Shown here piece by piece: positions 18,593-49,574 of a stretch of 64,000 bases of DNA (positions are counted from its first letter, which is position 1; every line of letters begins with the position of its first letter). The notes beneath the pieces were generated by a model. It worked only from the letters and a program-made list of their open reading frames with translations. It was not told the DNA's origin and did not search any database. A program made the position numbers and the translations under genes. The stretch is from positions 8,742,001 through 8,806,000 of the forward strand of contig NZ_CP109104.1 in assembly GCF_035917675.1 (NCBI RefSeq), written 5' to 3'. This stretch comes from Streptomyces sp. NBC_01775. Lineage in GTDB: Bacteria > Actinomycetota > Actinomycetes > Streptomycetales > Streptomycetaceae.

Positions 18593-18610
18593 GTATACGT
18601 TCTCGTTTAC
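18593..18610. promoter_or_regulatory. TetR operator 1 (imperfect palindrome)
   Basis: GTATACG-TTCT-CGTTTAC lies 7 bp upstream of the tetR ATG. It is the same as operator 2 except for one base in the left arm and the 4-bp centre, and would block tetR transcription when bound. Confidence 0.7.
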
Positions 18611-18645
18611 TTCGGAGGGGGTGGCTTGCTAAGGTCGCTCCGCAG

Positions 18646-18663
18646 GTAAACGCATTCGTTTAC
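18646..18663. promoter_or_regulatory. TetR operator 2 (perfect palindrome)
   Basis: GTAAACG-CATT-CGTTTAC has perfect 7-bp arms and ends 24 bp before the nitroreductase ATG. Its near copy at tetR, with centres 53 bp apart, marks both as binding sites of the adjacent regulator. Confidence 0.75.
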
Positions 18664-18687
18664 TTGAGCGTCCTTGAGGAGAGTTCC

Positions 18688-19639: not shown

Positions 19640-19792
19640 CAACTTATCGCCAGGATTTCCGGCGCAAGACACTAGCTGTATCGATCACGCGCGTGCTTGT
19701 GTGCACTGTCGGCGCAAGTCCGGCCTCGGGACCGATGCGCGAGTAGCTCTCGGCGTGATCAACCGCCTTCGCATGCGCCCGCTGCTCACATG

Positions 19793-20818: not shown

Positions 20819-20959
20819 GCTTCTCTCTATCACGGCATTCCCTCCACCGACACCCCCGTCTGTCGGTGGATGTGACGGATTACTGCGTATCGGCGGCATC
20901 TTCGCGGAGCTCGCCCACTCTGGTTGCCGTAAGAGCTTCGAAGGAGGTCGCGGATCGCC

Positions 20960-22393
20960 ATGCACGCGGACATCGACGAAAACAAGAACCGAGACGAGAG
21001 CAGAGAAGACGGAGGCCTCAGCAGCGGGCACCCGCACGGCCAGCACCGGGCCGGCGCTCCCGGCCGGCGTGATCGGGTCGTCCGCGCGGCGGTCCGGTCC
21101 AAGCTGGTCAGCTCCGCCCACCTGGTGACCGGCTTCGTCGACGCCGACGGCGTCCGGGCGTCCGTGCACGACCTGCACCAAGCCTTCGGTGACGCCCCAG
21201 TACTGCACACCTTCGCCGCCAAAGCCGCCTCCCTCGTCCCCGTCCTGCGGCTCCTGGCCGATTGCGGCATGGGCTGCGAGGTCGCCAGCCCCGGCGAACT
21301 GCGCCTCGCGCTCGCCGCCGGATTCACGCCGTCCACGATCGTCCTGGACTCGCCTGCCAAGACCCGTGAAGAGATCCGTCAGGCGCTCGCCCTCGGCGTA
21401 GCACTCAACGCGGACAACCTCGATGAACTGCGGCGCATCGATGCCCTGCGCCCCGCCGACTCGGCATCCGTCGTCGGCCTGCGCGTCAATCCGCAGGTGG
21501 GTACCGGCTCCATCGGCGCGATGAGCACCGCCACCACCACCTCCAAGTTCGGGGTCGCACTGCGCGACCCCGGCGCTCACGAGAGCGTGGTACGGGCCTT
21601 CGCCGAGCGTCCTTGGCTGACCCGGCTGCACGCCCATGTCGGCTCCCAGGGGTGCCCGCTGGACCTCATCGCAACGGGCATCAAGGAGACGTACGAACTC
21701 GCCGAGGAAATCAACGCTGCCGTCGGCCGGCGGCAGGTGACGAGCCTCGACATCGGCGGCGGACTGCCGGTCAACTTCGACGACGACACCGTCCGCCCCA
21801 CCTACGCCGACTACGTCGGGGCGCTGCGCGCCGCCGTGCCCGACCTGTTCGACGGCCGGTATGCGCTGGTTACCGAGTTCGGCCGGTCCCTGCTCGCCAA
21901 GAACGGATTCATCGCCGCACGGGTGGAATACGTCAAGGACGCGGGAGGCCGCCGTATAGCCATCACTCACGCCGGTGCGCAGATCGCCACCCGCACCGTC
22001 TTCATGCCGGACGCCTGGCCGCTGCGGGTGAGCGCGTTCGACGCCGACGGTCGCCCCAAGGAAGGCCCGGCGCTCGTGCAGGACATCGCGGGGCCGTGCT
22101 GCTTCGCGGGCGACGTCGTTGCCCACGCCCGCGAACTACCCGAACTGCGCCCGGATGACCTCGTGGTGCTTCACGACACGGGCGCGTACTACTTCTCCAC
22201 CCCTTGGGCGTACAACAGCCTGCCGCGGCCCGCCGTGCACGGCTTCACCATCGCCGATGACGACACGGTGCACTTCGTGCCAGTACGTCACGCGCAGTCC
22301 TTGGACGAGGTTGTCGCAGAGAGCGGCCTGGCCAACGCAGACGCGCTGCTCGGACAGCCTGCGCCTGCCCTTCCCGTACCGGCCTCGCACTGA
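20960..22393 (+). CDS. Fold-type III PLP enzyme (Y4yA / DAP-decarboxylase-like)
   Basis: A 477-residue protein of the alanine-racemase/ornithine-DAP-decarboxylase superfamily. The PLP lysine is in 'LHTFAAKAASLVPVLRLL'; other conserved segments are 'GCEVASPGELRLAL', 'LHAHVGSQGCPLDL', the phosphate-binding 'SLDIGGGLPVNF' and 'TEFGRSLLAKNGF'. The C-terminal barrel has 'GPCCFAGDVV' and 'HDTGAYYFSTPWAYNS'. It should decarboxylate, racemise or eliminate from an amino acid. AGGAGG sits upstream of the ATG; the first ~40 residues are polar and not conserved. With the D-amino-acid deacylase downstream it may process D-amino acids. Confidence 0.8.
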   Translation: MHADIDENKNRDESREDGGLSSGHPHGQHRAGAPGRRDRVVRAAVRSKLVSSAHLVTGFVDADGVRASVHDLHQAFGDAPVLHTFAAKAASLVPVLRLLADCGMGCEVASPGELRLALAAGFTPSTIVLDSPAKTREEIRQALALGVALNADNLDELRRIDALRPADSASVVGLRVNPQVGTGSIGAMSTATTTSKFGVALRDPGAHESVVRAFAERPWLTRLHAHVGSQGCPLDLIATGIKETYELAEEINAAVGRRQVTSLDIGGGLPVNFDDDTVRPTYADYVGALRAAVPDLFDGRYALVTEFGRSLLAKNGFIAARVEYVKDAGGRRIAITHAGAQIATRTVFMPDAWPLRVSAFDADGRPKEGPALVQDIAGPCCFAGDVVAHARELPELRPDDLVVLHDTGAYYFSTPWAYNSLPRPAVHGFTIADDDTVHFVPVRHAQSLDEVVAESGLANADALLGQPAPALPVPASH

Positions 22394-28315: not shown

Positions 28316-29692
28316 TCAGACTACGCGGGCGAGCACTCCTCGGGCCCGCTCGTCGATTTCGGCAGCCGCGCTGATCCCGCGGTTCCGGTACGGGGACAGC
28401 ATGCGCCGCATGGTGACCGCGCTTTCGCGTGTCCTGCCGGACTGGACTCCCTCCATTGCGTCCAGCGCTTGGCTCCAGACGTGACACGCGGCTTCGACGC
28501 TGCCCTGTTGTGCTTCCAGGGCGCCTAGGAATCCGAGCGTTACCGCGTGTGTCCGGCCGAAGGCGCCGGCGTTCCGAGTGCGGACGCTGCGCCAGAACTC
28601 GGTTTCGGCTCCGCGAAGGTCGCCGAGGACCCAGAGGGTGCGAGCGGTCTCGTGGGCGAGCGATGCCTCTGAGAAGAACCAGACCCGGCTGGGCTCCTCG
28701 TGCCCGGGCTCGGCTGCGGCCAGGTCGTTCTCGGCGAGAAGAAGGGCTTCTCTGGCCTCGCGCTGCTGGCCGTTCGCGGCGAGGCTGCGAGCGCGAACGA
28801 CTCCGAGCAAGGCGCGCTCTCGTGGGACCGCCAGGGTGTAGCGTCCTCGGTCGACCGAGGCGCTGGAGAGATCGACACCCCGCTTCGAGTAGCCGAGGTC
28901 GGTGGCCTGGTGCGCCATGGCGCGGAGAACGTGTCCTGCCAACGGCTCGTCGTCGGCTTCGGCTGCCAGTTTGACGGCGAGAGTGAAGTATCGGCGGGCG
29001 TCCTCGTGCTGGGAGGAATCGAAGGACATCCAGCCTGCGAGGTAGACCGCCTCCGCCGCTGCCGCGTACAAGCGACTGCGCGTCTGGTCGCTGGCGAATG
29101 TTCCGCCCAGGTAGGCCGCGATGTCGTCGTGAATGTACTGGTGCAGGGCGGTTCGGCCATCGAGGCCGCCCTGACGCTGGTCGCGCCGGGAGAAGAACTC
29201 CGTCATCTCGCGAACGGCGTTGATCTCCGACATCCCGACTCGGCGACCTGTCGTCGCGGTGCGTGTCTTGGCGCGATCCGGGGCTTCGTCCCACCACGTC
29301 CGGTGGGGGAGGGCGAGCCCGCTTACCGAGTAGGTAGCCCCGGCCAGCAGCCGACGACGTTCCACGTTGTTACTCCCGAGGTCGACGAGCGCGGTCAGCG
29401 TATCGACGTGCCACTCCGAGACAGCCGGTAGGCCCGGCGTGCCTAGTCCGATCTCGCCGGGAGTGATGGGGCGTTGGAGTCGGCGGGACAGGGCCTCGCA
29501 CAAGATACGAGGCGCACTGCCCGAAGGTTGCGTCCCCGCGATCCACATGGCGATGTGGGAGCGCGTAACGCCGGTCAACTCCGCAGCGCCGGACTCGGTG
29601 GCGACTCGAACCACCGCAGCGGCGAGCTTCGGCTGTGACCAGCCGGTTTCCGCGATGACGGCGGCCAATTGCTCGTTCCGTTCACGCGCCAT
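28316..29692 (-). CDS. XRE/TPR-type regulator
   Basis: A 458-residue protein with an N-terminal helix-turn-helix (residues ~7-80, 'WSQPKLAAAVVRVA...VTRSHIAMWIAGTQP') and helical repeats from about 180 to the end of TPR type ('AAAEAVYLAGWMSFDSSQHE', 'ARSLAANGQQREAREALLLA'). This layout is a large Streptomyces family of regulators, often beside small membrane or signalling genes. It is divergent from the 29831 gene across 138 bp and is the closest candidate controller of the biosynthetic operon downstream. Ligand unknown. Confidence 0.8.
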   Translation of the reverse strand: MARERNEQLAAVIAETGWSQPKLAAAVVRVATESGAAELTGVTRSHIAMWIAGTQPSGSAPRILCEALSRRLQRPITPGEIGLGTPGLPAVSEWHVDTLTALVDLGSNNVERRRLLAGATYSVSGLALPHRTWWDEAPDRAKTRTATTGRRVGMSEINAVREMTEFFSRRDQRQGGLDGRTALHQYIHDDIAAYLGGTFASDQTRSRLYAAAAEAVYLAGWMSFDSSQHEDARRYFTLAVKLAAEADDEPLAGHVLRAMAHQATDLGYSKRGVDLSSASVDRGRYTLAVPRERALLGVVRARSLAANGQQREAREALLLAENDLAAAEPGHEEPSRVWFFSEASLAHETARTLWVLGDLRGAETEFWRSVRTRNAGAFGRTHAVTLGFLGALEAQQGSVEAACHVWSQALDAMEGVQSGRTRESAVTMRRMLSPYRNRGISAAAEIDERARGVLARVV

Positions 29693-29830
29693 GGTGCGTC
29701 CCTGCTCAGAAAACGATCTTTGACGGGTTTGACGGCGTCGAGAGCCGCTCGGGGATACCGACCCACCGTGCTCAACGGTTTGCTCTGTGTCAACGACACC
29801 CCCAAGTGCCCCTGCCCCGAGAGGAATCCG

Positions 29831-30409
29831 GTGAACAGCACTCAGCCGTCTGCCACCGCCATCCAACAAGGCAGCGCGCGCCTCTTCCAACAGCGTGCCG
29901 ACGCCAACATGCTCATGCCGGGTCCGGGGCGGCTGGAAGGGGAGCGGGGCTTCGGCCGGAGCCTGTTCTCCGATTCCGTTCGGGCGGATCCCGATCCGAG
30001 TCTCACCGCCATGAGGAGACGTCGCGCGAACCTCGGGCACAGGATTGCCGCGCTGAGGGGACAGGGCCGGGTGGCGCGGGTCTGCCTGTATGCGCGTGCC
30101 ATGAGCGATGCGGAGGTCCCCGCGCGGTCGCTTGAGGCGGTAAGTGTCTTTGCCGCACAGGAAGGGTGGCATGCCCGAACCGGCCGGGTATTCACAGATC
30201 AGGCCGGGCCTTCTTCTCCGACTGCCCGACCGGGCTGGATCCGTGTGCAGCAGCATGTGCGCTCCGGCTACGCCGACGGTGTCGTCGCACTGACTCATTC
30301 CGCGATCTCCCTGCGCTGCGACGAGTACGAGACGCAGCTTCAGTGGTTCGCGGATCACTTCGGGTTCATCGCTCTCGTGCATCCCGAGATCCCGTTGGGC
30401 CAGCGGTGA
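29831..30409 (+). CDS. Resolvase-fold-like protein, unknown function
   Basis: A 192-residue product beginning at GTG with GAGG 8 bp upstream. The C-terminal ~110 residues ('RVARVCLYARAMSDAEVPAR', 'FADHFGFIALVHPE') resemble the catalytic-domain fold of serine recombinases ('...YAR.S') but lack a clear nucleophile Ser context and any DNA-binding domain, so it is unlikely to be an active recombinase. The N-terminal 60 residues are variable. It overlaps the ATPase gene by 4 bp. Confidence 0.55.
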   Translation: MNSTQPSATAIQQGSARLFQQRADANMLMPGPGRLEGERGFGRSLFSDSVRADPDPSLTAMRRRRANLGHRIAALRGQGRVARVCLYARAMSDAEVPARSLEAVSVFAAQEGWHARTGRVFTDQAGPSSPTARPGWIRVQQHVRSGYADGVVALTHSAISLRCDEYETQLQWFADHFGFIALVHPEIPLGQR

Positions 30410-30882
30410 CGGCGGCAGTGGTGGAGCCTCTCGACGTGGGTCCGCCTGTCCCCGTCGAAGGGGTCCGCGATGACCTGGGTCTCCGGATCATGCGCACTCC
30501 CAGGGCGCCCAGCGCGGCTGTGCCTGACCACGAGGCCCGTTGGGTCGAGCGCTGCCGACGGATCGGCACCGAGAAACTGCGGCTGTGGGGCATGCCGAGC
30601 CTGATCGATGATGCTCAGCTTCTGATCAGCGAACTGGTCACCAACGGCCTGCAACACGGCGATGGAAGCAGCGACCTCGGCGTGCGGTTCGTCGTCACCG
30701 CCGGCCGCCTGCTGGTCGCCGTCGAGGACGGCTCGCCCGGTAAAGCGCAAGTGCGCCATGCCGCAGCGCACGACGAGGCCGGCAGAGGAATGTTCCTGGT
30801 GGCCGCGCTCGCCACGCAGTGGGGCGTCAGCCCGGACGGCTCCACCACCTGGTTCTCCCTTGCGGTTGAAGGGAGGAGCTGA
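30406..30882 (+). CDS. HATPase_c anti-sigma-type ATP-binding protein
   Basis: A 158-residue single-domain GHKL ATPase. The N-box is 'LLISELVTNGLQHGDGS', the G1 box 'VAVEDGSPGKAQV' and the G2 box 'DEAGRGMFLVAALATQWGV'. Streptomyces hold dozens of such RsbW/SpoIIAB-like proteins that bind sigma or anti-anti-sigma partners. Start GTG overlaps the previous stop (GTGA); its stop overlaps the next ATG by one base, so the three are one operon. The partner is not visible here. Confidence 0.85.
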   Translation: MTAAVVEPLDVGPPVPVEGVRDDLGLRIMRTPRAPSAAVPDHEARWVERCRRIGTEKLRLWGMPSLIDDAQLLISELVTNGLQHGDGSSDLGVRFVVTAGRLLVAVEDGSPGKAQVRHAAAHDEAGRGMFLVAALATQWGVSPDGSTTWFSLAVEGRS

Positions 30883-31253
30883 TGGCCAACGACTCCGTGT
30901 CCCTGACTGTGCTCACGGGAGACGAGCTGGCGGCCGACCGCTTCCCCGACTTGCCCGTGCGGCTCGTACTCAACGCGGCATTCGCGGAAGAAGACCGGGA
31001 GGGGCGTCCCGCGCGGGTGGAGGTTCGGATGCGGCCTGACCGTCTGGCGGATCTGGCCCACCGCGTGAAGGCAGCCCAGACCGCACTGGCGATCCAGGCG
31101 CGCCGCCGCGCGGAGGCGGAGTCAGTCCAAGAGGAACGAGAACGGGCAACGCATGTGGCGCTGCGCAGCGCGCCGCCGACCGACACCGATCTGCTGAAGC
31201 GGGTCCTGGTGTGCCTCGGCGGAGTCATTCCCCCCGCAGCCACCAGCGCGTAG
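30882..31253 (+). CDS. Hypothetical protein, 123 residues
   Basis: A polar protein coupled to the ATPase gene (TGATG overlap). The middle is a charged helix ('LADLAHRVKAAQTALAIQAR' then RRAEAESVQEERER), probably coiled coil, followed by a short hydrophobic tail (LLKRVLVCLGGVIPP). I cannot assign a family. It could act with the ATPase as a regulatory partner. Confidence 0.6.
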   Translation: MANDSVSLTVLTGDELAADRFPDLPVRLVLNAAFAEEDREGRPARVEVRMRPDRLADLAHRVKAAQTALAIQARRRAEAESVQEERERATHVALRSAPPTDTDLLKRVLVCLGGVIPPAATSA

Positions 31254-31310: not shown

Positions 31311-31379
31311 ATGAAACGCATCACACCCCACCACGCCGAACCCAACCCCGAACTCCAGAGCACCCCACCGGAGGAATAG
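31311..31379 (+). CDS. 22-residue micro-ORF directly before lanB
   Basis: ATG at 31311 preceded by GAGAAG-like sequence; the translation is MKRITPHHAEPNP followed by ELQSTPPEE, and it stops at TAG 31377-31379, two bases before the lanB ATG. The last codons (CCG GAG GAA) contain the lanB ribosome site. It is either a translational-coupling leader, controlling access to that site, or a very small precursor peptide with one Ser and two Thr that LanB could modify. The sequence alone cannot choose. Confidence 0.35.
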   Translation: MKRITPHHAEPNPELQSTPPEE

Positions 31380-31381
31380 AG

Positions 31382-34300
31382 ATGGTGCAGTGGACGGATC
31401 CCAAGCACACGAGCACGGCCGCCCGTGACCCGTACTTCCTCGACGCACGGTGCTGTGAGCTGGAGGGGACGGAGCACGCGCTGCGCGGGATGTTCGACGA
31501 CCGGGTGCTTCCGCGCCGCACCGGCACCCCCGATCGGCTGGGATACCAGTGCGCCGAGCCGGTACTGATCCGGGTGGCCCACCTCGCCCTGCTGGAGCTG
31601 CCGCCCTGGCCGGACCTCGGCGATCCGCGGCAGGGGACCGCGTGGGTGCGGAAGGTGTGGTCGCTTCCCGGGGTACGGGACGCGGTGGAGCACGCCAGTC
31701 CGGATCTGGCCCGCCAACTCGACCAGCTCGGCTCCGTCGTCGCTCCGGCGCGGCAGGTGCGCCGCAGCGTGCTCGCACTCGCGGGCTACATGCTGCGCAT
31801 GAAGGGGCGCCCCACCCCATTCGGGCTGCTCGCCGGCGTCACCGAAGGTCGCTTCCTCGACGCGACGGAGACCGGGGCCGGGGCGGGGACCACGGCGTGC
31901 TGGGGGCCGGCACACCGGGCCAAGGCGTGGCCCGGCGCCGGATGGCTGGCCGAGGTCATCAACGACCTGGAGGCGTCCCCTGCCGTCCGGCGCCGCCTGA
32001 AGGTCAAGGCCAACAACGTCTGCGAGCGCCGTGGGGAGCGGCTTGTCGTGCCCTGGACGCCCCGGCCCACCCGGGCCCGGACCACGTCGGTCTGCGAGCG
32101 CTCCGTGTACGCGACACCGCTGGCCTCGGCGGCACTGCACTTGGCCCGCCAGCCGATCGGGTTCGCCGATCTGGCGGCGAAGGTCCAGGCCGAACATCCC
32201 GCCGCCGCCAATGAGAAGGTGGAGACGGTGCTGCACGAGATGATCGAGCAGCGACTGCTGCTGACAAGCGCGTACCCGGCGGCCACAGAACCCGACCCGT
32301 TGGGACACGTGCTCAGCGAGATGCGCCGAGCCGGCCTTGAGGACCTCCCGCTGGTACGCCGCCTCGGACAGATCCACGCCCTGATCTCCCAGCATGACGA
32401 GGCACCGGCTGCCCGGGCAGCCGATCTGCGCCGCGCGCTGACGCGGCGGATGAACGAAGCGCACGACACCCCGTCGCCGCTCGCCCTGGATCTGCGCGTG
32501 GACGGGAAGGTCGAACTGCCCGGGGCCGTCGCCCGCGAGATCGAATCCGCGGTCACCGCGCTGACCCGCGTCAGCCCTCATCCACACGGCACCCCCGCGT
32601 GGCGCCGCTACCACCAGCGCTTCCTGGAACGCTACGGGCACAGGGCATGGGTGCCGGTGACCGAACTTGTGGACCCCGACATCGGCCTCGGGCTGCCGGA
32701 GGGCTACCTGGGGGCCGAACCGTCCCCGAGCCCGGAGTGGACGCCCCGCGACAAGAAACTCGTCGCGCTCGCCCAGTCCGCCGCCCGGGACGGCATCCGC
32801 GAGATCGAACTGGACGAGCACCTCCTCTGGACCCTCACAAGCGGCGATCCCGAGCGCATGCGGGCACCCGCCCACATCGAAGCAGCCTTCGAGGTCCACG
32901 CCCGCACTCCACACGACATCGACCGGGGGGTCTACTCGGTCACGCTGACCAACGTCTCGCGGGCCTGGGGAACCATGACGGGAGGCCGCTTCACCAGCCT
33001 GCTGGAGAGCGACGGCCGGGCATCCGCGATGGTCGAAGCGCTGCGCGGCCTGCCCACCACCGACCCGGACGCCCTCATCGCTCAGGCGTCCAGCACCTCC
33101 CTGCGACCCGACGCCGCGCACATCACACGGGTACCTCAACTGCTCTCGGCGACCGTGTCGGTCTCCGAACACCGCGAGGACGAGCCAGGAACCCTCACGC
33201 TCTGCGACCTCGCCGTCATGGCGGACGCGCAACGCATCCACCTGGTCTCCCGCTCCACCGGACGGCCAGTCGAAGTCGCCACGCTCCATCCCCTGCAACT
33301 GGAGGTCCACACACTCCCGGTCATCCGCTTCCTCACCGAGATCAGCAGGGCCCGCGCCGTCGGTCTGCGCGGTTACACCACCTTCGACTGGGGCGCAGCC
33401 GTCTGCCTGCCCTACCTGCCCGGCGTCCGCTACGGCCGCGTGCTGCTCTCCCGGCCTCGCTGGCGGCTGGAAGAGGAGGATCTGCCCAGCCGCGACGCGA
33501 CGACGGTGGAGTGGGAGCAGGCACTGGCCGAGCTACGCGAACGGCTCGGACTGCCCTCCGTGGTCCGCGTCTCCTACGTCGACGAGCGCCTGGTGCTCGA
33601 CCTCGACGAGCCCCTCCACCGCGCGCTGCTGCGCAGGCAGGTCGAACGCGCACGTATCGCTCCGCTCACCTTCGACGAGGCCCCCGCCGACCGGGCCCGG
33701 GAGTGGATCGGGGGACGACCGCACGAGATCGTCGCCCTCCTCAAGGCGAGCCCGCAGGCCCGGCAATGGCCTTCCACCGACCCGGCCACCGCCGTCCGCC
33801 GACGGCCCCGTGTCCCGCAGCCTCCCGGCACAACGGACCGCTTGTGCCTGCTGTGGCCGGGACGCCCACGCCGTCAGCAGGAGATCGTCGCCCGTCACCT
33901 CCCACACCTGCTGAGTGACCTCAGCGACGCGCTGCCCGGTCCTCCTCGGTGGTGGTACCGCTGCGGGCGGGACCACCTGCTGCTCACCCTCGTCCTCCCT
34001 GACCGTGCGGCGTTCGGGGAAGCCGCCCATCGCGTCGGCGAATGGGCCGGTGGCCTGAGCGACACCGGGATGCTGGCGGGAGACGGACTCAGGTATGTGG
34101 CCTACCGCCCCGAATACCGCCGGTGGGGCGAGGCGGACGCGCTCACGGCAGCCGAGCACGTTCTGGCTGCCGACTCCGCGGTCTTCGCCCACCAACTCCG
34201 GGACAACCACCATCCCGACACACGCGTCCTGGCCGCGTCCAACATGGTCACCACCGCGCAGGCATTCCTAGGCGGGCCCGACCACGCGGCGCACTGGCTG

Positions 34301-34609
34301 GTCGAACACCTCCCGAAACAGACCCGGCCCCACCTTCCCCGCGCCTTCGTGGCGGAGACCATCCGAAGCACGAAGGACTGGGCACCAGACGGCTCGGCCG
34401 AGGCGCACCGGCAGTCCGTGACCTTGCTGTACCGCGCCGTATGCGACCGCGCCCCCGACGTCGAGCCGGACCTCGTGCTCACCGAGCTGCTGTACGAACA
34501 CCACCTGCGAGCCCACGGCCCGAACCAAGAGCGTGAACAAGACTGCTGGCACCTCGCCCGTGCCGCCGCCCTGTCCTACCAGGCCCGCAGCCGACAACCG
34601 GCGCGATGA
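31382..34609 (+). CDS. Lantibiotic dehydratase, full-length LanB type
   Basis: The 1075-residue protein has both LanB parts: the N-terminal glutamylation domain (about 45-780, with 'MKGRPTPFGLLAGVTEGRF' near residue 140) and the C-terminal elimination/ThT-like domain (about 810-1065, 'WWYRCGRDHLLLTLVLPDRA' onward). Class I dehydratases use glutamyl-tRNA to activate Ser/Thr of a peptide and then eliminate glutamate to give Dha/Dhb; relatives (PEARLs) add amino acids to peptide ends. No LanC cyclase or normal precursor is nearby; instead nucleotide-modifying enzymes follow, so the substrate may be atypical. A GGAGG site lies just before the ATG. Confidence 0.88.
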   Translation: MVQWTDPKHTSTAARDPYFLDARCCELEGTEHALRGMFDDRVLPRRTGTPDRLGYQCAEPVLIRVAHLALLELPPWPDLGDPRQGTAWVRKVWSLPGVRDAVEHASPDLARQLDQLGSVVAPARQVRRSVLALAGYMLRMKGRPTPFGLLAGVTEGRFLDATETGAGAGTTACWGPAHRAKAWPGAGWLAEVINDLEASPAVRRRLKVKANNVCERRGERLVVPWTPRPTRARTTSVCERSVYATPLASAALHLARQPIGFADLAAKVQAEHPAAANEKVETVLHEMIEQRLLLTSAYPAATEPDPLGHVLSEMRRAGLEDLPLVRRLGQIHALISQHDEAPAARAADLRRALTRRMNEAHDTPSPLALDLRVDGKVELPGAVAREIESAVTALTRVSPHPHGTPAWRRYHQRFLERYGHRAWVPVTELVDPDIGLGLPEGYLGAEPSPSPEWTPRDKKLVALAQSAARDGIREIELDEHLLWTLTSGDPERMRAPAHIEAAFEVHARTPHDIDRGVYSVTLTNVSRAWGTMTGGRFTSLLESDGRASAMVEALRGLPTTDPDALIAQASSTSLRPDAAHITRVPQLLSATVSVSEHREDEPGTLTLCDLAVMADAQRIHLVSRSTGRPVEVATLHPLQLEVHTLPVIRFLTEISRARAVGLRGYTTFDWGAAVCLPYLPGVRYGRVLLSRPRWRLEEEDLPSRDATTVEWEQALAELRERLGLPSVVRVSYVDERLVLDLDEPLHRALLRRQVERARIAPLTFDEAPADRAREWIGGRPHEIVALLKASPQARQWPSTDPATAVRRRPRVPQPPGTTDRLCLLWPGRPRRQQEIVARHLPHLLSDLSDALPGPPRWWYRCGRDHLLLTLVLPDRAAFGEAAHRVGEWAGGLSDTGMLAGDGLRYVAYRPEYRRWGEADALTAAEHVLAADSAVFAHQLRDNHHPDTRVLAASNMVTTAQAFLGGPDHAAHWLVEHLPKQTRPHLPRAFVAETIRSTKDWAPDGSAEAHRQSVTLLYRAVCDRAPDVEPDLVLTELLYEHHLRAHGPNQEREQDCWHLARAAALSYQARSRQPAR

Positions 34610-34688
34610 GGGTCCCGTCCCCCCCCATCGCCTCATGACTTCTCCCTCTCGGTGAGCGCCCCTCTGCCCGAGTGGTTCGCCGGAGGAG

Positions 34689-34740
34689 GAGAGGGGCCTC
34701 TCGCCACTCGCGCCATCGGTAGGCGAGGAGCCGCGGCTCC
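34689..34740 (+). promoter_or_regulatory. Two short hairpins upstream of the TS-like gene
   Basis: The 207-bp gap after lanB holds two tight palindromes: GAGAGG/CCTCTC at 34689-34702 and GGAGCCG/CGGCTCC at 34727-34740. They may form RNA structures that attenuate or stabilise the message before the TS-like gene. Confidence 0.35.
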
Positions 34741-34816
34741 CCCCGAAATGGCCCACCCAGTCCCTGGGGGAGAGCCGCACGACTACCCGCTGGACGAAAC
34801 CGAAAGGACACGCATC

Positions 34817-35836
34817 TTGACTGTGACGTCTTCCTTCCGCAGCGTCGAAGGCGCCTACCTGGCGCTGCTCACGCAGGCGACCGACCAGTACGAGCAGCAC
34901 ATTGCGGCCCGGGGCAACGAGGCCCACGAGGTCATCGGCGTCGGCTTCCGGCTGTCCGACCCCCGGCAGCGCCTCGCGTATTTGGTGACACGCAAGGTCA
35001 ACCCGGTCTTCCAGTTCGCCGAGGCGCTCTGGCACTTGGCCGGCCGCCGCGACCTGGAGATGATCGGCCACTACGCGCCGTCCATGCGCTCCAGCTCCGT
35101 TGACGGCGCCTCCCTCCACGGCTCCTCCTACGGCCACACGCTCTTCAACCCCGCTGATGGCGACACAGTCTCACCCTTCGACCGGGTCCTGGAGCTGCTG
35201 CGTACCGAGACCGACAGCAAGCGCGGGTACCTCCCGGTCTTCTCCGCAGCCGAGCTGGCCGTCAGTGACAACCCTGACGTGGCCTGTCTGGCCGGGCTGC
35301 ACCTGCTCGCGCGCGGTGGACGTCTGCACATGGTGTGCAACATGCGGGCCAACGATCTGGACCGCGGACTGCTCAGTGACGTGTTCAGCTTCACGATGAT
35401 TCAGGAGTACGCAGCGGTCCAACTCGGTCTGGAACTGGGGGCATACACCCACTTCATCGGTTCGGCCCACGTCAACGACCGGGATTCCGAGCGCGTCAAA
35501 AAGGTCCTGGACGAGGCGGACTTGCGCCGCCACCCCCAGCACTTCCCCTTCCCCGCGATGCCGGCGGAGACCACGCCCGGCGTCATCGCGCGCGTCCTCG
35601 AACACGAGGAGCTGCTGCGCACCGACACGGTCCGCTACAGCGCGGACGACATCGCACAGCTGGACATGCACGCGTACTGGCAGCAGGCAGTGCTGCTGTT
35701 CGAAGTGCACCGGCAGGTCCAGCATGAACGGACCGCCACCGTGAGCCGGGACGTACTGGACGCGCTGCATCCGGGCCTGCGCTGGCTGCTCGGGCACCGC
35801 TGGTCGTCCTTCGCGGCCGAGGGAGCCGAGCGGTGA
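34817..35836 (+). CDS. Thymidylate-synthase paralogue, predicted CMP/dCMP hydroxymethylase
   Basis: A 339-residue ThyA-fold protein starting at TTG with GAAAGGA 8 bp upstream. Aligned by eye to E. coli ThyA it keeps the folate/dUMP glutamate (E69, 'FAEALWHLAG'), the nucleophile C157 ('DVACLAGLHLL'), R177 and D180 ('MRANDLD') and H218. The pyrimidine-reading Asn177 is Asp here (D188 in 'RGLLSDVFSF'), the switch found in T4 dCMP hydroxymethylase and MilA, which act on cytosine. ThyA Tyr209 is Asn (N220). I infer C5-hydroxymethylation of CMP or dCMP with methylene-tetrahydrofolate. A 4-bp overlap joins it to the NDK-like gene. Confidence 0.75.
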   Translation: MTVTSSFRSVEGAYLALLTQATDQYEQHIAARGNEAHEVIGVGFRLSDPRQRLAYLVTRKVNPVFQFAEALWHLAGRRDLEMIGHYAPSMRSSSVDGASLHGSSYGHTLFNPADGDTVSPFDRVLELLRTETDSKRGYLPVFSAAELAVSDNPDVACLAGLHLLARGGRLHMVCNMRANDLDRGLLSDVFSFTMIQEYAAVQLGLELGAYTHFIGSAHVNDRDSERVKKVLDEADLRRHPQHFPFPAMPAETTPGVIARVLEHEELLRTDTVRYSADDIAQLDMHAYWQQAVLLFEVHRQVQHERTATVSRDVLDALHPGLRWLLGHRWSSFAAEGAER

Positions 35837-36372
35837 ACCGACCATCGGAGAGCGGCTCCGTGGTGGAGGGCATCGACTTCTCCCACTGGGCGGTTGTCCT
35901 GTGCAAGCCGGACGCGGTGGACCGCACGCTCGTGGACACGGTCCTCGAACGCATCACGGCTGCCGGTGTCACCCTCGTCAGCCGCCGGGACCTCGTTGCG
36001 CGCGCGTGGCAGGCCCACGTCCATTACTGGGATCTGCTCGTTGACGCCGACTGGTTCCCCGGCCGCGACATTCCCGCCTGTCTGGACGCGATATACGCCG
36101 ACCAGCCCGTCACGGTCGCCCTGGCGCGCGGCGAGCCCGGCATCCACTCCCGTCTGCGGCAGACGCTCGGCCACTTCGACCCGACCCAGGCCGAGCCCGG
36201 CACGATCCGGGGCGACCTCGGAAACGACAGTCTCCAAGCCGCCCTTGCAGAGAAGCGCCTCGTACACAACCTCGTGCACACCTCGGACGACCCCGCTGCC
36301 GCGCGCCGGGACTTCGGTACCTGGTTCGGCGCCGGCCGCCGCGAACTCCTGGCACCTGCCGCTCCGAGGTAA
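35833..36372 (+). CDS. Nucleoside-diphosphate-kinase-like protein
   Basis: The 179-residue protein has NDK motifs: 'VVLCKPDAVDR' (ATP lysine), 'FDPTQAEPGTIRGDLG' and the phospho-histidine region 'NLVHTSDDP' (canonical N..HGSD). Active residues seem kept, while the loop between is longer than in housekeeping Ndk (~137 residues). It could phosphorylate the modified nucleotide diphosphate made in this pathway. Start GTG overlaps the TS-like stop. Confidence 0.8.
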   Translation: MNRPSESGSVVEGIDFSHWAVVLCKPDAVDRTLVDTVLERITAAGVTLVSRRDLVARAWQAHVHYWDLLVDADWFPGRDIPACLDAIYADQPVTVALARGEPGIHSRLRQTLGHFDPTQAEPGTIRGDLGNDSLQAALAEKRLVHNLVHTSDDPAAARRDFGTWFGAGRRELLAPAAPR

Positions 36373-36424
36373 ATCACACCCAGCCAGGCGTACGTGACTC
36401 CCTCTCCCACCTCTGGAGGACTCC

Positions 36425-37603
36425 ATGAACGCTCCCGTAGCCTCACCCCGCCGTGCTCTCCCGATCCTGTCCCCCGAACAGATCGGCGGCCTGAAACCGG
36501 CTCTCGCCGACGTGATCGAGTACCGCAAGTCCGGACTGTCGCTGAACTGGATCGTCGGCTGCCCGCTGGAGTGCGGGTACTGCGTACGGCACCTCTTCGA
36601 CAACTTCGAGATGAAGATCCCCCGGCGCCTCATGAGCGACGAAGAAGCCGCCGCCCGCCTGACCGGACACCCCTACTTCCGGGCGCACAAGACGCCCCTC
36701 CAGCTCCTGAACCGCGCCACCGACCCGATGCTCCCCGTCGTGAAGCCGCACCTGTTCCGCTTACTGCGCACGCTGGACGATCAGGGCCTGACCAATCACG
36801 TCCTGATCATTACGCGATGGCGGGTGGCCCCCGAGGACTGCGCGACCCTCAACAGCTTCGCCCACCTGCGCCTGACCGTGCTGGTCACCCACTCCAACAT
36901 CGCAGACCCGGCCATCGAGCCGGTGGACTCCACCATCGCCGCACAGAGCCTGCGCACCCTGCACGAGCACGCCGAGCGCTACCGCACCGTCCTGTACTGG
37001 CGGCCGATCGTGCCGGGCCTCAACGACTCCGAGGCCGACATCGAGCGAGCTCGTGACCTTTCCCAGCACGCGCACGCAACCGTCTTCACGGGCCTGTTCT
37101 TCCGGAACGAGATCGCCGCGTACTACGAGGCACACGGTCTGGACATGCCGTACGAGGACACCGCCCGGCGCAAGATCATGCCCGAGGCCGCCGAGCAGCG
37201 GATCCTCGACGCCTTCGAGCAGGACGCATCCTGGGGAGCCCTGTTCCGCAAGACCTCGTGCGGTGTCGCCTACGCACACGGGGAGGCCGACTACAACGGG
37301 CACTACGGCATCCGCGAGCTGTGCGACATCTGCCCTGTCGAGCAGATCGCGAGGTGCCAGGCCGCCTGGGTCCAGCCGGACCTGAAGGCCGTCACGCAGG
37401 AGGCGCGCGAACTCGGCGCGGCCGGCCAGGTAGAGGTCAATGACCGTGCCATCGTCGTCGAAGGACTGGACGAACCGCCGCGCTACTACCTCCAGCACGG
37501 CTTCGGCTACCAGTGCCACGACCGAGCCAAGCCCCACCACTACCGCCAGCACGGCCGAGCCGACATCGGCTGGGAGGCGGAGAACGGACACCCGACCACA
37601 TGA
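36425..37603 (+). CDS. Radical SAM enzyme
   Basis: A 392-residue protein with the SAM/4Fe-4S motif C46-x3-C50-x2-C53 ('GCPLECGYC'). It resembles the spore-photoproduct-lyase/Rv2578c-like branch. The C-terminal region has further cysteines ('ELCDICPVEQIARC', ~305-320, and a late 'YQCHDRA'), which could hold a second cluster. GGAGG precedes the ATG. It would generate a 5'-deoxyadenosyl radical to alter a nucleotide or peptide; the substrate is unknown. It overlaps the DnaQ-like gene by 4 bp. Confidence 0.82.
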   Translation: MNAPVASPRRALPILSPEQIGGLKPALADVIEYRKSGLSLNWIVGCPLECGYCVRHLFDNFEMKIPRRLMSDEEAAARLTGHPYFRAHKTPLQLLNRATDPMLPVVKPHLFRLLRTLDDQGLTNHVLIITRWRVAPEDCATLNSFAHLRLTVLVTHSNIADPAIEPVDSTIAAQSLRTLHEHAERYRTVLYWRPIVPGLNDSEADIERARDLSQHAHATVFTGLFFRNEIAAYYEAHGLDMPYEDTARRKIMPEAAEQRILDAFEQDASWGALFRKTSCGVAYAHGEADYNGHYGIRELCDICPVEQIARCQAAWVQPDLKAVTQEARELGAAGQVEVNDRAIVVEGLDEPPRYYLQHGFGYQCHDRAKPHHYRQHGRADIGWEAENGHPTT

Positions 37604-38202
37604 ACTTCTCCTCCTGGCCCGCGCTGCTCGTCGTCGACGTCGAGGGCAACGGCACCAACCCGCCCGACCTGGTCGAGGTCGCCGCGCTCCCCGTCCGCGA
37701 CGGACAGCCCGACGAGAGCACCGCGGGCGCCTGGCTGACCAAGCCGAACCGTCCCGTGACACCGTTCGCCACCCGGGTGCACGGCCTGACCAACCAGGTA
37801 CTGGAAGACAAGCCGGGCTGGGAGGAGATCAAGGGCGCGGTCCACGCGTTCCTGGGCACGGCGTGGATCGCCGCGCACAACGCACACGTGGACCACCGAG
37901 TCCTCTCCGCGCACCTCCCGCAGTGGCAGCCGGCCGGGGTCATCGACACGCTCCGGCTGGCCAAGGCCACCTATCCCGACCTGGCCAAATATGACCTCGA
38001 CACCCTGATCGAGCACGTCGAACCGGACCTGAGCCAGGCCCCTGCCCAGCGCCATCGGGCGACGTTCGACACGTACGCGACCGCGCAACTCCTCATCGCC
38101 ATGGCCGGCCGGTACGAGAGCTGGGACCAGCTCGTGGCCGTCGCCGTCCCGCCCGGCCTGCCCGGCGCCCCCGAACCAGAACAGGAGCCCACCCTGTGGT
38201 GA
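37600..38202 (+). CDS. DnaQ-family 3'-5' exonuclease
   Basis: The 200-residue single-domain DEDD nuclease shows Exo I 'VVDVEGNG' (D13, E15), Exo II 'HNAHVDHRVL' and Exo III 'HRATFDTYATAQLL'. It resembles proofreading and RNase T/oligoribonuclease enzymes. In this setting it might trim RNA (for example a tRNA end) or release nucleotides for modification. Starts with ATGA overlap to the radical SAM gene and overlaps the P-loop gene by 7 bp. Confidence 0.85.
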   Translation: MNFSSWPALLVVDVEGNGTNPPDLVEVAALPVRDGQPDESTAGAWLTKPNRPVTPFATRVHGLTNQVLEDKPGWEEIKGAVHAFLGTAWIAAHNAHVDHRVLSAHLPQWQPAGVIDTLRLAKATYPDLAKYDLDTLIEHVEPDLSQAPAQRHRATFDTYATAQLLIAMAGRYESWDQLVAVAVPPGLPGAPEPEQEPTLW

Positions 38203-38813
38203 CCGCACCGAGCCCCACGCATATCGGCGTGATGGGCGCCCACTCCACCGGCAAGACCACGCTGCTCAAGCGCATTGAGAGGGAACTTCGTGGCCACGGC
38301 ATCACCGTGGCCCGTACCGGCAAGCTCGGTCGCCGCGCCGCAAGCCTCGGTCTGCCCAAGATGCAGCACCACACCGCAGCCTCCACCGAGTGGGTCATCG
38401 CGCAGGGCATCGCTGACGAAATAGCCGCAGCCACCCCGCGCTCCGAGCACGCTGAACCCCTCCAGGTCGTCCTCGCCGACCGCGCCGCCTGGGATGCCCT
38501 TGCCTACTACCGCGCAGCCCAGGTATGGCGCCGGGACCGCCCGAACCAACCGGAGCACGACCGGCTGACACTCCTCGCCTCGACTCAGGCACCGAAGTAC
38601 AGCCTCCTCCTGGCGACGGTCCTCGACCCCGCTCTCTCCGTCGCGGGCAAGCACGACCACGACGGCCGCTACCGCACATTGGTGGACCGGCACACCCACA
38701 GGCTGCTCGCCGAGCAGGACATCCCGCACGAACGCGTGACGAGCGACCCCGACAGCCAGACACACGCCGTCGAGCTGGCGCTTCAGCTCTGCCTTACCGA
38801 GGCCACGCCGTGA
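38196..38813 (+). CDS. P-loop NTPase / nucleotide-kinase-like protein (AAA_28)
   Basis: A ~205-residue protein with Walker A 'GAHSTGKTT' and a Walker-B/DR motif 'VVLADRAAWDALAYYRAAQ', as in NadR-type and AAA_28 nucleotide kinases. It may phosphorylate a nucleoside or nucleotide, feeding the NDK-like enzyme. Two tandem GTG codons (38196, 38199) are possible starts with AGGAG 8 or 11 bp upstream. It overlaps the AKR gene by 4 bp. Confidence 0.75.
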   Translation: MVTAPSPTHIGVMGAHSTGKTTLLKRIERELRGHGITVARTGKLGRRAASLGLPKMQHHTAASTEWVIAQGIADEIAAATPRSEHAEPLQVVLADRAAWDALAYYRAAQVWRRDRPNQPEHDRLTLLASTQAPKYSLLLATVLDPALSVAGKHDHDGRYRTLVDRHTHRLLAEQDIPHERVTSDPDSQTHAVELALQLCLTEATP

Positions 38814-39580
38814 GCAGCCCACCGCCTGCGGGCACCCTCACCATCGCCGGGAAAACCGTCTCCCGGCTGGGCTTCGGCACCATGCGCCTCACCGGCCCTG
38901 GCACCTGGGGCGACCCGGCCGACCGAGGCAAGGCCCTCGACCTGCTCCGTCAGGCCGTCCATACCTACGGCATCACCCACATCGACACCGCCGATGCCTA
39001 CGGGCCCCACACCGTCGAGCACCTACTCAAGGACGCCCTGCACCCCTACCCCAGGGACCTGCTGATCGCGACCAAGGTCGGCATGCTCCGTACAGCGCCC
39101 AACGAATGGACACCGCACGGGCACCCCGTCTACCTCCGGGCCAGCGTAGAAGCGAGCCTGCGCCGCCTCGCCGTGGACCGACTCGAACTCTGCTACCTCC
39201 ACCGCATCGATCCGCAGATCCCTCTCGACGACCAGATCGCCGTGATGGAAGCCCTCCAGGACGAAGGCAAGATCGGCCACATCGGACTGTCCAAGGTCAC
39301 ACCCGACGACATCCTCGCGGTGGCACAGGACCTGCCCATCGCTGCCGTGCAGAACGTCCTCAACCTCACCGACCACTCGGACCCAGCAGTGGAACTCTGC
39401 CGGAACTTGGACATCCCCTACGTGCCGTACCGGCCCCTCGGCGCCGGCCACCTCGCCCACACACAGGGAATCCGCACAGCCCTTCGTTGGCTGCTCGAAC
39501 TCGGCGACCACGTCGCACCCATTCCCAGCACCAGCCGACCGAAGCACCTCGAACAGATCGTGGCGTCCGTGGCCGAATAA
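38810..39580 (+). CDS. Aldo/keto reductase
   Basis: A 256-residue NADPH-dependent AKR. The catalytic tetrad is visible: Asp and Tyr in 'HIDTADAYGPHTVEHLL', Lys in 'LLIATKVGML' and His in 'CYLHRIDPQ'. The C-terminal cofactor site is 'IPSTSRPKHLEQI'. It is shorter than many AKRs (~300) but complete. As the last gene of the run it likely performs a reduction in the same pathway. Confidence 0.88.
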   Translation: MSSPPPAGTLTIAGKTVSRLGFGTMRLTGPGTWGDPADRGKALDLLRQAVHTYGITHIDTADAYGPHTVEHLLKDALHPYPRDLLIATKVGMLRTAPNEWTPHGHPVYLRASVEASLRRLAVDRLELCYLHRIDPQIPLDDQIAVMEALQDEGKIGHIGLSKVTPDDILAVAQDLPIAAVQNVLNLTDHSDPAVELCRNLDIPYVPYRPLGAGHLAHTQGIRTALRWLLELGDHVAPIPSTSRPKHLEQIVASVAE

Positions 39581-47138: not shown

Positions 47139-47696
47139 ATGCACCAGACCGACACCGCCGAGCCGCGCACCCTCGGCGACCACACCTGGCACAACCAGGC
47201 CACCTGCCTGTCCACTACGACCAACCCGGTCGACCCGGAGATCTTCTTCCCCGAGCCGGACGAGATGGACCGCATCCACGCCGCCAAGGCCCTGTGCGCC
47301 CAGTGCCCGGTCCGCCGGACCTGCCTGGATGCCGCCTTGGAGGCGGGGGATCGCGAGGGCATCCGGGGAGGGATGACCGAGGAGGAACGCGAGCCGCTGC
47401 ACAGCAAGCTCCACCTGCGCCTCGACTACGCCCGCGTCAACGCCACCCTGGCCGGTCGCGACATCCACCTCACCGATGCCGAACGTCGCGCGACCGTCCG
47501 CACCGCTTACCAGAAGGGCATCCCGGCCGAGTATCTTGCCCGCCTGCTGAAGATCACCGAGGAGCACGCTGAGAAGCGCTACCGCCAGGTGCGCCGCGAG
47601 ATCCGCAACAGCTCGGTCGACGCCACGGGCGACCAGACCCTGGCCACCGCCCCGACCGCGCCGACCGCCCGCGACAACCTCGGGACGGCCGCGTGA
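47139..47696 (+). CDS. WhiB-family iron-sulfur regulator
   Basis: A 185-residue WhiB-like protein. Four cluster cysteines are visible: one in 'NQATCLSTT', then 'ALCAQCPVRRTCLDAALE', followed by the G[VI]RGG turn 'REGIRGGMTEEER'. The C-terminal extension (90-160) is unusual for Wbl proteins and contains a helix-turn-helix-like stretch ('ERRATVRTAYQKGIPAEYLA'). Plasmid- and phage-borne WhiB proteins modulate host development or their own operon. The stop overlaps the SpdB-like start (GTGA). Confidence 0.9.
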   Translation: MHQTDTAEPRTLGDHTWHNQATCLSTTTNPVDPEIFFPEPDEMDRIHAAKALCAQCPVRRTCLDAALEAGDREGIRGGMTEEEREPLHSKLHLRLDYARVNATLAGRDIHLTDAERRATVRTAYQKGIPAEYLARLLKITEEHAEKRYRQVRREIRNSSVDATGDQTLATAPTAPTARDNLGTAA

Positions 47697-48604
47697 CCCA
47701 CATCGACGCGATACCGGTGCGCATCACCGGCTGGGACCGCGCCGCCATCGTCACCCTCGGCGCCGCCGGGTGCGCGCTGTCCTACGACGCGCTGCAGCAG
47801 ATGGCCGTCGCCATCCACATCCGGGGACTGCTCACCTACCTCTTCCCCTTCGTCATCGACGGTTTCATCGGCTACGGCGTCCGCGCGGTGCTGGTGATGC
47901 GCAGCGCCTCCCTCGGCGCTCGCTGCTACGTGTGGGCCCTGTTCGGCGTCGCCACCGCCGCGAGCATCTGGGCCAACGCCCTGCACGCCGTCCGCCTCAA
48001 CGACCGGGCCCCGGGCGGCGGCGGTCTCCAGCTCGGGGACGTTGCGGTCGGCGTACTGTCCACACTCGCCCCGCTGGCCCTGGCCGGAGCCGTCCACCTC
48101 TACATCCTCATCGCCCGCCGCGCCGCACAGCCCGGACACCCGGACACGGCCGGTGCGGATACCTCCGTCGTCCGTACCGAGCGGGTCACCGATGTCCCGG
48201 CGGACAGCGGGTCCGTCCGGGGCGCGACGGAGAACCCGGAGGGTCGGCGCGGACAGCCGGACACCGGCTCCGAAGACGCACCAGAGCACAAGGGACGCGA
48301 CGCTGTCCTCGGCGGAGAGCCGGACGCGAGATCCGGTCACCCTGCCCCGAACGGGACGCCCGCCCCGGGCCCGTCGGCGGGCAACGGCGATGCGGAGACG
48401 GGCTCCCCGTCCGCTCCCGGTGAGACCGAGGACCTGCTGCCGATCGCCCGCCGCGCGGTGTCCGAGGCCGGGAAGCTGACCCGTCAGGTGGTCGCCGACG
48501 CCATCCGGGGACAGGGGATCCCGCTGTCCAACGACCGGCTGACCGAGCTGATGCAGCAACTCCGCACCGAAGCGGGCAACCGGACACTCCGCTCCACCGG
48601 CTGA
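47693..48604 (+). CDS. SpdB-like DUF2637 membrane protein
   Basis: A 303-residue protein: four transmembrane helices in residues 1-145 ('AAIVTLGAAGCALSYDALQQ', 'GLLTYLFPFVIDGFIGYGVR', 'LGDVAVGVLSTLAPLALAGA') typical of DUF2637, then a disordered Pro/Gly/Asp-rich linker, and a C-terminal helical domain ('LTRQVVADAIRGQGIPLSND') that looks like a small winged-helix. Proteins of this type act in plasmid spread between mycelial compartments in Streptomyces. Confidence 0.8.
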   Translation: MTHIDAIPVRITGWDRAAIVTLGAAGCALSYDALQQMAVAIHIRGLLTYLFPFVIDGFIGYGVRAVLVMRSASLGARCYVWALFGVATAASIWANALHAVRLNDRAPGGGGLQLGDVAVGVLSTLAPLALAGAVHLYILIARRAAQPGHPDTAGADTSVVRTERVTDVPADSGSVRGATENPEGRRGQPDTGSEDAPEHKGRDAVLGGEPDARSGHPAPNGTPAPGPSAGNGDAETGSPSAPGETEDLLPIARRAVSEAGKLTRQVVADAIRGQGIPLSNDRLTELMQQLRTEAGNRTLRSTG

Positions 48605-48748: not shown

Positions 48749-48973
48749 GTGCGTGCCACCCCGCCGTCCACCGAGGAGATCGAGGTGTGGCTCGCCGTCC
48801 TGCGCGCACACGGCCACCTGCACTGCGCCGAAGCCGGCCCCGACGGGACCTGGACGGTGCGGCGGACACCGTCGAGCGCCCCACACACGCTGCACCACCC
48901 CGTCCTCGCCCTCGACTACATCGCCGCCGTGCTGCGCGACGTCCGGGTCGAAGCCGGAGACGGCGCCCGATGA
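48749..48973 (+). CDS. Small hypothetical protein of the mob operon
   Basis: A 74-residue protein starting at GTG with GGGAG about 7 bp upstream. It opens 'RATPPSTEEIEVWLAVLRAH' and ends 'ALDYIAAVLRDVRVEAGDGA'. Its stop overlaps the mobC ATG by 4 bp. Function unknown. Confidence 0.55.
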   Translation: MRATPPSTEEIEVWLAVLRAHGHLHCAEAGPDGTWTVRRTPSSAPHTLHHPVLALDYIAAVLRDVRVEAGDGAR

Positions 48974-49569
48974 CGACGCCGAACAACCCCACCACCCCGC
49001 CCGGGGGTCTGCCGTACGACCAGCCGGCACGAGGCCGAGCAAGCTATACCTTGCGAAACTCCCTCGACGGCGGGGCCGTCGAGGGAGTTTCGCAAGGGCA
49101 TGCCCCCACCCCCACAATGGCGGGGGAGGCCCGGCACCAGGGGGCGCCGCAGCCGAGGGGGGAGATGCCGCCGAGCGCCGCCGTCGAGACACGCATGCGC
49201 CCGCGCCTTCGCCAGTCCCAGCAGCGCGACCGCGTGCGCAGCGTCCGCCTGACCGCCGACGAACTCACCGACGTTCAGCGCGCCGCCGAAGCGATGGGCC
49301 TGCGGGTCGCCGGATTCCTCGCCGACGCCGCAGTCGCCGTGGCCCGCGCCCAGGACGGTCCGCACACCTGGCTGATGGACCAGCGCGCTCTCGTCGAGGA
49401 GCTGATGCGCGCCTCCGCCCAGCTCGCCCGCGTCGGCAACAACCTCAACCAAGTCGCCCGCGCGCTCAACAGCGGCGGCGAGACCCCATACGCCGAAGAC
49501 GCCCTCGCTCGCGTGCTGCGGGCCGCAGCCCGCGTCGAGGCCGCCGCCACCGAGATCGCGAAGCGCTGA
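48970..49569 (+). CDS. MobC-like relaxosome protein
   Basis: Up to 199 residues; the conserved ribbon-helix-helix/MobC region spans about 80-199 ('RDRVRSVRLTADELTDVQRA', 'ELMRASAQLARVGNNLNQVA' then RALN). MobC binds near oriT and helps the relaxase melt it. The first ~75 codons are unconserved and contain the long oriT-like hairpin, so translation may really start downstream (ATG at 49117 or 49166). The ATG at 48970 overlaps the preceding stop. Confidence 0.8.
   Translation: MTTPNNPTTPPGGLPYDQPARGRASYTLRNSLDGGAVEGVSQGHAPTPTMAGEARHQGAPQPRGEMPPSAAVETRMRPRLRQSQQRDRVRSVRLTADELTDVQRAAEAMGLRVAGFLADAAVAVARAQDGPHTWLMDQRALVEELMRASAQLARVGNNLNQVARALNSGGETPYAEDALARVLRAAARVEAAATEIAKR
49049..49097. other. 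Probable oriT: 22-bp perfect inverted repeat
   Basis: Two 22-bp arms (49049-49070 and 49076-49097), identical when inverted, with a 5-nt loop CGGGG. A C-rich tract GCATGCCCCCACC follows directly. It lies just upstream of the conserved part of mobC and about 480 bp before the relaxase gene, where oriT hairpins of mobilizable elements usually sit. Too long and too early in the operon for a terminator. Confidence 0.6.
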
Positions 49570-49574
49570 CCACC

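Follow-up and report, generated by a model that had tools for sequence, protein, structure and literature searches.

The window analysed here, a stretch of 64,000 nucleotides (positions 8.742-8.806 Mb of the 9.3 Mb, two-contig genome of Streptomyces sp. NBC_01775), carries a row of six genes that encode, in this order, a thymidylate synthase (TS)-family enzyme, a nucleoside diphosphate kinase (NDK)-like protein, a radical SAM enzyme, a DnaQ/DEDDh-type exonuclease-like protein, a P-loop (AAA_28) kinase-like protein and an aldo/keto reductase (AKR). We read them as a mobile nucleotide-modifying module which, with about even confidence on our side, is best explained as an undescribed anti-phage system, its actinobacterial form making a nucleotide derived from 5-hydroxymethylcytidine. 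Sequence comparison shows a core of the radical SAM enzyme, the exonuclease-like and the kinase-like protein, to which an AKR or an HD-domain protein is added in many copies; in actinobacteria, the putative CMP 5-hydroxymethylase and the NDK-like protein form a front end. A LanB-type dehydratase gene that precedes the six on the same strand is a neighbour and not a member of this module.

To define the module, a profile of the TS-like protein was used, which gave 39 related loci, all from named genomes of Streptomyces, Actinacidiphila and, in one case, Kribbella. Gene order was counted in the 37 loci with at least 6 kb downstream, several of the incomplete ones comprising only a partial TS match. 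All six genes follow each other in order in 24 of these 37 loci, and downstream of the TS gene we found NDK in 34, radical SAM in 33, DnaQ in 31, the AAA_28 kinase in 27 and the AKR in 25. That this order recurs in other genomes is more than chance would give, but LanB does not recur with it: a relative is present in 0/39 loci, and in none of the 33 that have at least 5 kb upstream. An earlier sequence-only reading had expected seven families, LanB included, to be conserved together in this order; this holds for six of them, and routine separation, which was to speak against a joint pathway, was found for LanB but not for the other six. Upstream of the TS gene, among the 31 loci with 6 kb on that side, a divergent helix-turn-helix (HTH) gene stands in 12 and a HATPase gene in 16, and the genes between this regulator pair and the TS gene vary (endonuclease/phosphatase-like, Nudix-like, methyltransferase or unknown, by eye and annotation). 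Two homologues come from strain ML694-90F3, for which a literature search gave only work on other topics.

The TS-like enzyme indicates where the pathway may start. Its profile matched the solved CMP 5-hydroxymethylase MilA at 5.6e-91, compared with 7e-14 for the best thymidylate synthase. In MilA, Lys133 and Ala176 are linked to a preference for ribose and Asp186 to cytosine substrates; the nucleophile is Cys155, and the ribose is bound by His216 and Tyr218 (PMC5175136). Lys133, Cys155, Ala176, Asp186 and His216 align to K135, C157, A178, D188 and H218 of the window's enzyme, and these five residues are kept in all 32 aligned relatives. Position 220, the counterpart of Tyr218, is occupied by Asn in 25 of the 32 relatives, by Cys in 3, by Gly in 3 and by Arg in 1. 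In a second set of proteins the Tyr is kept in loci L080, L087, L090 and L092 and lost in all 10 radical-SAM-linked proteins, two of which are deep prophage copies with Gly at the Ala176 position. From these alignments, CMP-type chemistry is well supported, and the sugar pocket probably differs from that of MilA. The earlier proposal of a C5-hydroxymethylated cytosine nucleotide as early product is likewise supported by the MilA-type residues. With MilA and BcmA of the mildiomycin and bacimethrin pathways, the enzyme shares the TS fold family, the nucleophilic Cys, the Lys133/Ala176 ribose pair and Asp186 (PMC5175136). In contrast, the radical-SAM-linked forms have lost Tyr218 and are accompanied by kinases, a radical SAM enzyme and an exonuclease instead of a MilB-like partner; a MilB-like nucleotide hydrolase was neither annotated in seven Streptomyces plasmid regions nor recognised by eye in the loci inspected, no profile search having been made. 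By eye, the MilA-type genes of L080 and L087 do stand beside a MilB-like gene and might belong to bacimethrin-like clusters, L080 having ThiD-like and radical SAM genes as well. L090 and L092 belong to another class: L090-L094 represent a second TS-like class in Streptomyces, 33-37% identical to the window's enzyme, in another conserved cluster that by eye comprises a HAD-type phosphatase, a carbamoyltransferase-like protein, a small P-loop kinase and a methyltransferase. In L091 and L093, NsdA-type regulators similar to that of the window furthermore lie upstream.

Since a phylum-wide search with the radical SAM protein returned the own genome only, its spread was traced in plasmids, viral contigs and a protein collection. 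A tblastn search with an Agrobacterium radical SAM protein gave 27 plasmid records (18 non-Streptomyces, 9 Streptomyces), of which 14 and 7, respectively, were viewed. The radical SAM, DnaQ and AAA genes, hereafter the triad, are adjacent in 12 of the 14 non-Streptomyces records, including a Nocardia record in which the annotation splits the radical SAM gene in two. The exceptions are Nostoc, which lacks a DnaQ gene at this place, and a single Roseibium copy that is followed by an insertion sequence element. An HD-domain protein, which matched the PADLOC dGTPase weakly (4.5e-6), comes next in 8/14 of these records and an AKR in 2 (Gluconobacter and Nocardia). Outside actinobacteria, the triad occurs without the TS gene on plasmids and in a Mu-like prophage. 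In actinobacteria, too, plasmids and prophages carry the module, and six Streptomyces plasmids have TS, NDK, radical SAM and DnaQ in a row. The radical SAM gene was also found on nine contigs of a viral collection. Among the four examined for phage genes, L141, L121 and L122 have portal, capsid or tape-measure genes and L146 an amidase only; in the L121 prophage, capsid and tape-measure genes lie on both sides of the module. A search of 50,697 phage records gave no match to the radical SAM gene, all copies seen being located in provirus-like contigs, on plasmids or in bacterial genomes. A phage DNA hypermodification pathway, considered as a candidate, is disfavoured by this result. In the window itself, DUF2637 and relaxase genes follow 8-12 kb downstream of the module. 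The module is carried by mobile elements; mobility alone, nevertheless, does not amount to defence. Downstream of the module, one of the Streptomyces plasmids, L157, encodes a LanC-family protein and a GrrM/OscB radical SAM maturase (17639-21143).

The argument for defence comes from the neighbours of the triad, on a chosen set of which PADLOC was run. Beside the triad, it recognised a CBASS cyclase, E1-E2 and a phospholipase effector in S. meliloti, GajA and GajB of Gabija together with a dGTPase in A. vitis, SduA (Shedu) and LmuB (Lamassu) in Rhizobium, and SduA with a candidate family in S. chiapasense. In the Mu-like prophage L141, SIR2 and HerA lie immediately upstream of the triad. Furthermore, L140 has a dGTPase, a DpdJ/Mokosh-like helicase and a methylase-like gene beside it, the Labrenzia lineage a type IIG-like enzyme (7e-28) and Mesorhizobium a HamB-like helicase (7e-45). 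If Labrenzia and Roseibium are counted as one locus and two Rhizobium plasmids as another, eleven independent non-Streptomyces loci are given, and a defence neighbour is strong in six and moderate in two of them. Control stretches of 36 kb, taken from other places on six of the same plasmids, together contained no named anti-phage system and one VapC-type toxin gene. Scored by gene name, defence genes were present near the triad on 4/6 plasmids versus 0/12 control half-stretches (one-sided Fisher test, 0.005). A nucleotide-based defence or signalling system had been offered as an alternative in the sequence-only reading; the evidence now points to defence outside Streptomyces, but it is weak within this genus.

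In the window, the seven genes beginning with LanB lie in the order and on the one strand that had been reported, as borne out by Pfam matches and the Cys motif of the radical SAM enzyme (Table 1). The claim that the main motifs are intact also stands for all six enzymes, with the radical SAM, NDK, Walker A, exonuclease and AKR motifs found. With the start codons chosen in this analysis, four of the six junctions overlap as claimed, but by 4 bp each and not by 4-8 bp. The remaining two are a gap of 52 bp between NDK and radical SAM and one of 207 bp between LanB and TS, the widest of the operon. The chosen TS start is a TTG preceded by the Shine-Dalgarno-like GAAAGGA; with an alternative in-frame GTG at 34652 the latter gap would shrink to 42 bp. 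Further away, the window contains by eye a urease-type operon (12592-16957) and arsenic-resistance-like genes (52719-63200; ArsR-type regulators, a methyltransferase and a low-molecular-weight phosphatase-type reductase).

Table 1. Features of the window, numbered from its first nucleotide.
Feature	Position	Strand	Match or motif	Remark
LanB-type dehydratase	31382-34609	+	Pfam N-terminal domain E 2e-186, C-terminal 1e-16	neighbour of recurrent module, non-member
TS-family, MilA-type CMP 5-hydroxymethylase (predicted)	34817-35836	+	Pfam TS 1e-14	core of actinobacterial form
NDK-like protein, single domain	35833-36372	+	Pfam NDK 5e-19, motif NLVHTSD	
Radical SAM enzyme	36425-37603	+	CPLECGYC, residues 46-53	most widely shared module member
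DnaQ/DEDDh-type 3'-5' exonuclease-like protein	37600-38202	+	Pfam RNase_T 1e-16; motifs DVEG, AHNAHVD, HRATFD	
P-loop (AAA_28) kinase-like protein	38199-38813	+	Pfam AAA_28 9e-8; PHROG 'thymidylate kinase' 3.6e-12; Walker A GAHSTGKT	
Aldo/keto reductase	38810-39580	+	Pfam 7e-51; motif DTADAYG	
NsdA-family HTH/TPR regulator	28316-30382	-	NCBIfam NsdA_fam_reg 6.7e-116	
HATPase-domain protein	30490-30882	+	Pfam HATPase_c_2 2e-8 for the longer frame	start uncertain (longer frame 30166-30882)
DUF2637 protein	47693-48604	+	Pfam 1.6e-9	mobility-type
MobA/VirD2-like relaxase	48753-51308	+	Pfam 8.5e-8	

The partner enzymes were compared with known proteins as well. The radical SAM protein reached 0.076 against Pfam Radical_SAM, which is below threshold, and besides its N-terminal motif it has further Cys residues at 279, 300, 303 and 311 that are invariant in 24 aligned rows. 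Its predicted structure has a mean pLDDT of 75, with residues 1-12 and 33-69, including the iron-sulphur motif, below 50. Compared with the PDB, this model gave one match below 0.001 (SkfB, 3.5e-4) and many generic folds, with the first viperin at rank 30, and we judge the search of this model to be uninformative on function. By sequence, a PDB search gave no match for the radical SAM protein and nothing useful for the AAA_28 protein (best 0.056). The NDK-like protein is single-domain in the window and has two tandem NDK domains in 13 of 34 relatives; where read, the active-site motif is present in both halves of the tandem forms (L004, L006, L012, L020, L033 and others). Among PADLOC models, the module proteins matched general DEDDh, PDC-S48 (3e-16) and, weakly, mad8 (0.0056) only: no family matched TS, NDK, radical SAM or AKR, and no system-specific model was found for the core proteins. 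The kinases could raise a nucleotide as had been suggested, and the radical SAM enzyme and the AKR may alter it.

For the anti-phage reading the following mechanism can be envisioned. The TS-like enzyme would make 5-hydroxymethyl-CMP (hmCMP), or act on CMP with a sugar already altered, and the P-loop kinase and NDK would raise the modified nucleotide to the triphosphate, while radical SAM enzyme and AKR might alter the base substituent or the sugar. Phage polymerases would incorporate the product and then stall, and the exonuclease may either clear the product from host ends or degrade blocked strands. In TS-less forms, the starting material would be an ordinary nucleotide or one made by the phage. 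One might further speculate, although we regard it as rather improbable, that the module is a second, independent 'viperin', in which a C5-hydroxymethylated, sugar-altered cytidine nucleotide serves as polymerase poison and its own proofreading exonuclease as antidote. As the Tyr of the TS-like enzyme is lost, the hydroxymethylase would under this speculation work on a sugar already altered.

Viperin acts by making 3'-deoxy-3',4'-didehydro-CTP (ddhCTP), and PADLOC contains models for it. Viperin and the prokaryotic viperins resemble the module by analogy, in that a radical SAM enzyme would act in a presumed antiviral nucleotide pathway; they differ in that the radical SAM protein is without a match among the PADLOC families and that the first viperin appeared at the mentioned low rank of a weak fold list. 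Among the DefensePredictor systems, TS, deoxynucleoside monophosphate kinase and 5-hydroxymethyldeoxyuridine kinase domains were validated in phage defence (PMC13092281). TS-family and nucleotide-kinase domains are shared with the module, whereas the words 'radical', 'exonuclease' and 'DnaQ' do not occur in that text, the comparison being one of descriptions (PMC13092281). The DEDD diDNases are described from actinobacterial and clostridial genomic islands, 42% near defence systems (PMC11706625). They are likewise DEDD exonuclease genes on mobile elements, but by that description they stand beside HTH or HIRAN genes and not in a radical SAM operon (PMC11706625). A literature search by title and abstract, most subscription papers and supplements being out of its reach, gave no description of this gene set. 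As a proposal, we place the module with the nucleotide-based kind of defence.

Other explanations have to be weighed against defence. The sequence-only reading had proposed a hybrid in which LanB attaches the modified cytosine nucleotide to an amino acid or a peptide. It had in its favour the common strand, the modest gap, the regulator pair upstream of both, and the lack of a lanthipeptide-like precursor near LanB: over 27-36.5 kb, four small open reading frames (ORFs) passed a loose filter, none of them convincing. With both its domains, LanB does resemble the class I lanthipeptide dehydratases; the difference from a class I cluster is that it is unlinked to the module in relatives and that, besides the precursor, a LanC-like gene was not recognised by eye in the window's gene list, no LanC profile search having been made. 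LanB matches occur in 54 of 150 sampled Streptomyces genomes, the best relatives comprising 44-45% identity over the 433 residues searched, and the window's genome alone holds six LanB-like places. Only two other sampled genomes (G417, G477) have both the TS subfamily and a LanB match, and there the two are about 1.5 Mb apart and on different contigs, respectively. In the short sequences flanking 19 LanB relatives, no homologue of the 123-aa gene before LanB (30882-31253) is present, and five of them show a weak HATPase match; nor does this gene match the DUF6415 proteins found upstream of TS in four plasmids. Together with the complete absence of LanB from the related loci and its position across the widest gap of the operon, this leads us to reject LanB as a member of the module, its claimed part in the pathway being unsupported; we regard the hybrid as highly improbable. 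Since LanB lies in the variable stretch between the HTH/ATPase regulator pair and TS, it may be co-expressed with the six genes in this strain. Beside a relative of the window's LanB (L098, 3186-3389) we observed a small ORF that contains an FDLD motif and has an end rich in Cys, Ser and Thr, which we take to resemble the FxLD lanthipeptides.

The main rival, possible but in our view rather unlikely, is a small nucleoside or nucleotide natural-product cluster, in which hmCMP as in mildiomycin or bacimethrin is tailored by radical SAM enzyme and AKR to an antimetabolite and the DnaQ protein serves self-protection. In favour of it, the enzyme is of MilA type, NsdA-type and HATPase regulators stand upstream, the upstream DUF6415 genes carry the database name 'natural product biosynthesis protein', and ABC transporter-like genes were seen by eye downstream in four of the clustered loci, with one ABC-domain gene annotated. 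However, the MilB-like hydrolase is missing beside the module within the limits given above, the conserved six genes include no transporter, and the TS-less core adjoins anti-phage systems on alphaproteobacterial plasmids. It is also conceivable, if doubtful, that the module makes no poison and instead senses or degrades cytosine nucleotides that are phage-made or damaged (hydroxymethylated). Exonuclease, kinase, the weakly dGTPase-like HD protein and nearby annotated Nudix and MazG genes would fit such a clean-up, the modified substrate of TS-less forms could be supplied by the phage, and sensing of phage-modified nucleotides has been proposed for DndF, a defence P-loop kinase (PMC10853773). 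Yet the actinobacterial form has its own putative CMP hydroxymethylase and would thus make rather than remove such a nucleotide.

The anti-phage reading itself has to be held against several observations that speak against it. In three of the eleven non-Streptomyces loci little or no defence neighbourhood was found (Gluconobacter has a single weak match of 6e-7, and Nostoc and Nocardia were assessed from the annotated gene names), and the control was small and scored by gene name rather than by PADLOC. Streptomyces-type loci have few defence neighbours: in a set of 111 proteins taken from 15 loci, 40 families were matched, and the 25 listed include a JetA member, a mad6-type member and two generic kinase-type members, kinase- and methylase-type matches having at most two members each, and ten chosen proteins from such loci, most already in that set, gave only TPR-, subtilase- and kinase-type matches. 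The regulators upstream are similar to those controlling developmental or antibiotic genes, and neither TS nor NDK was seen in any non-actinobacterial locus viewed. The module is furthermore sparse: 42 of 295 Streptomyces genomes have any TS-profile match, about 14 by score, the own genome included, belong to the module's TS subfamily, and seven of the other matches that were inspected all came from other clusters; phylum-wide, the radical SAM search matched 1 of 296 genomes, its own. Finally, the second acidic residue of the exonuclease is Glu in 6/9 aligned rows, and no structure match reveals the role of the radical SAM enzyme.

Taken together, the LanB hybrid, which was misleading, can be removed from the list of odd biosynthetic clusters. 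If the anti-phage reading is true, a MilA-type enzyme need not signal an antibiotic cluster, and hmCMP or its sugar-altered form would be a concrete first intermediate to search for. The pharmaceutical interest in new antiviral nucleotides is illustrated by ddhCTP. Radical SAM chemistry would then underlie a family of mobile anti-phage modules that reaches from Streptomyces to the Rhizobiales and Nostoc.

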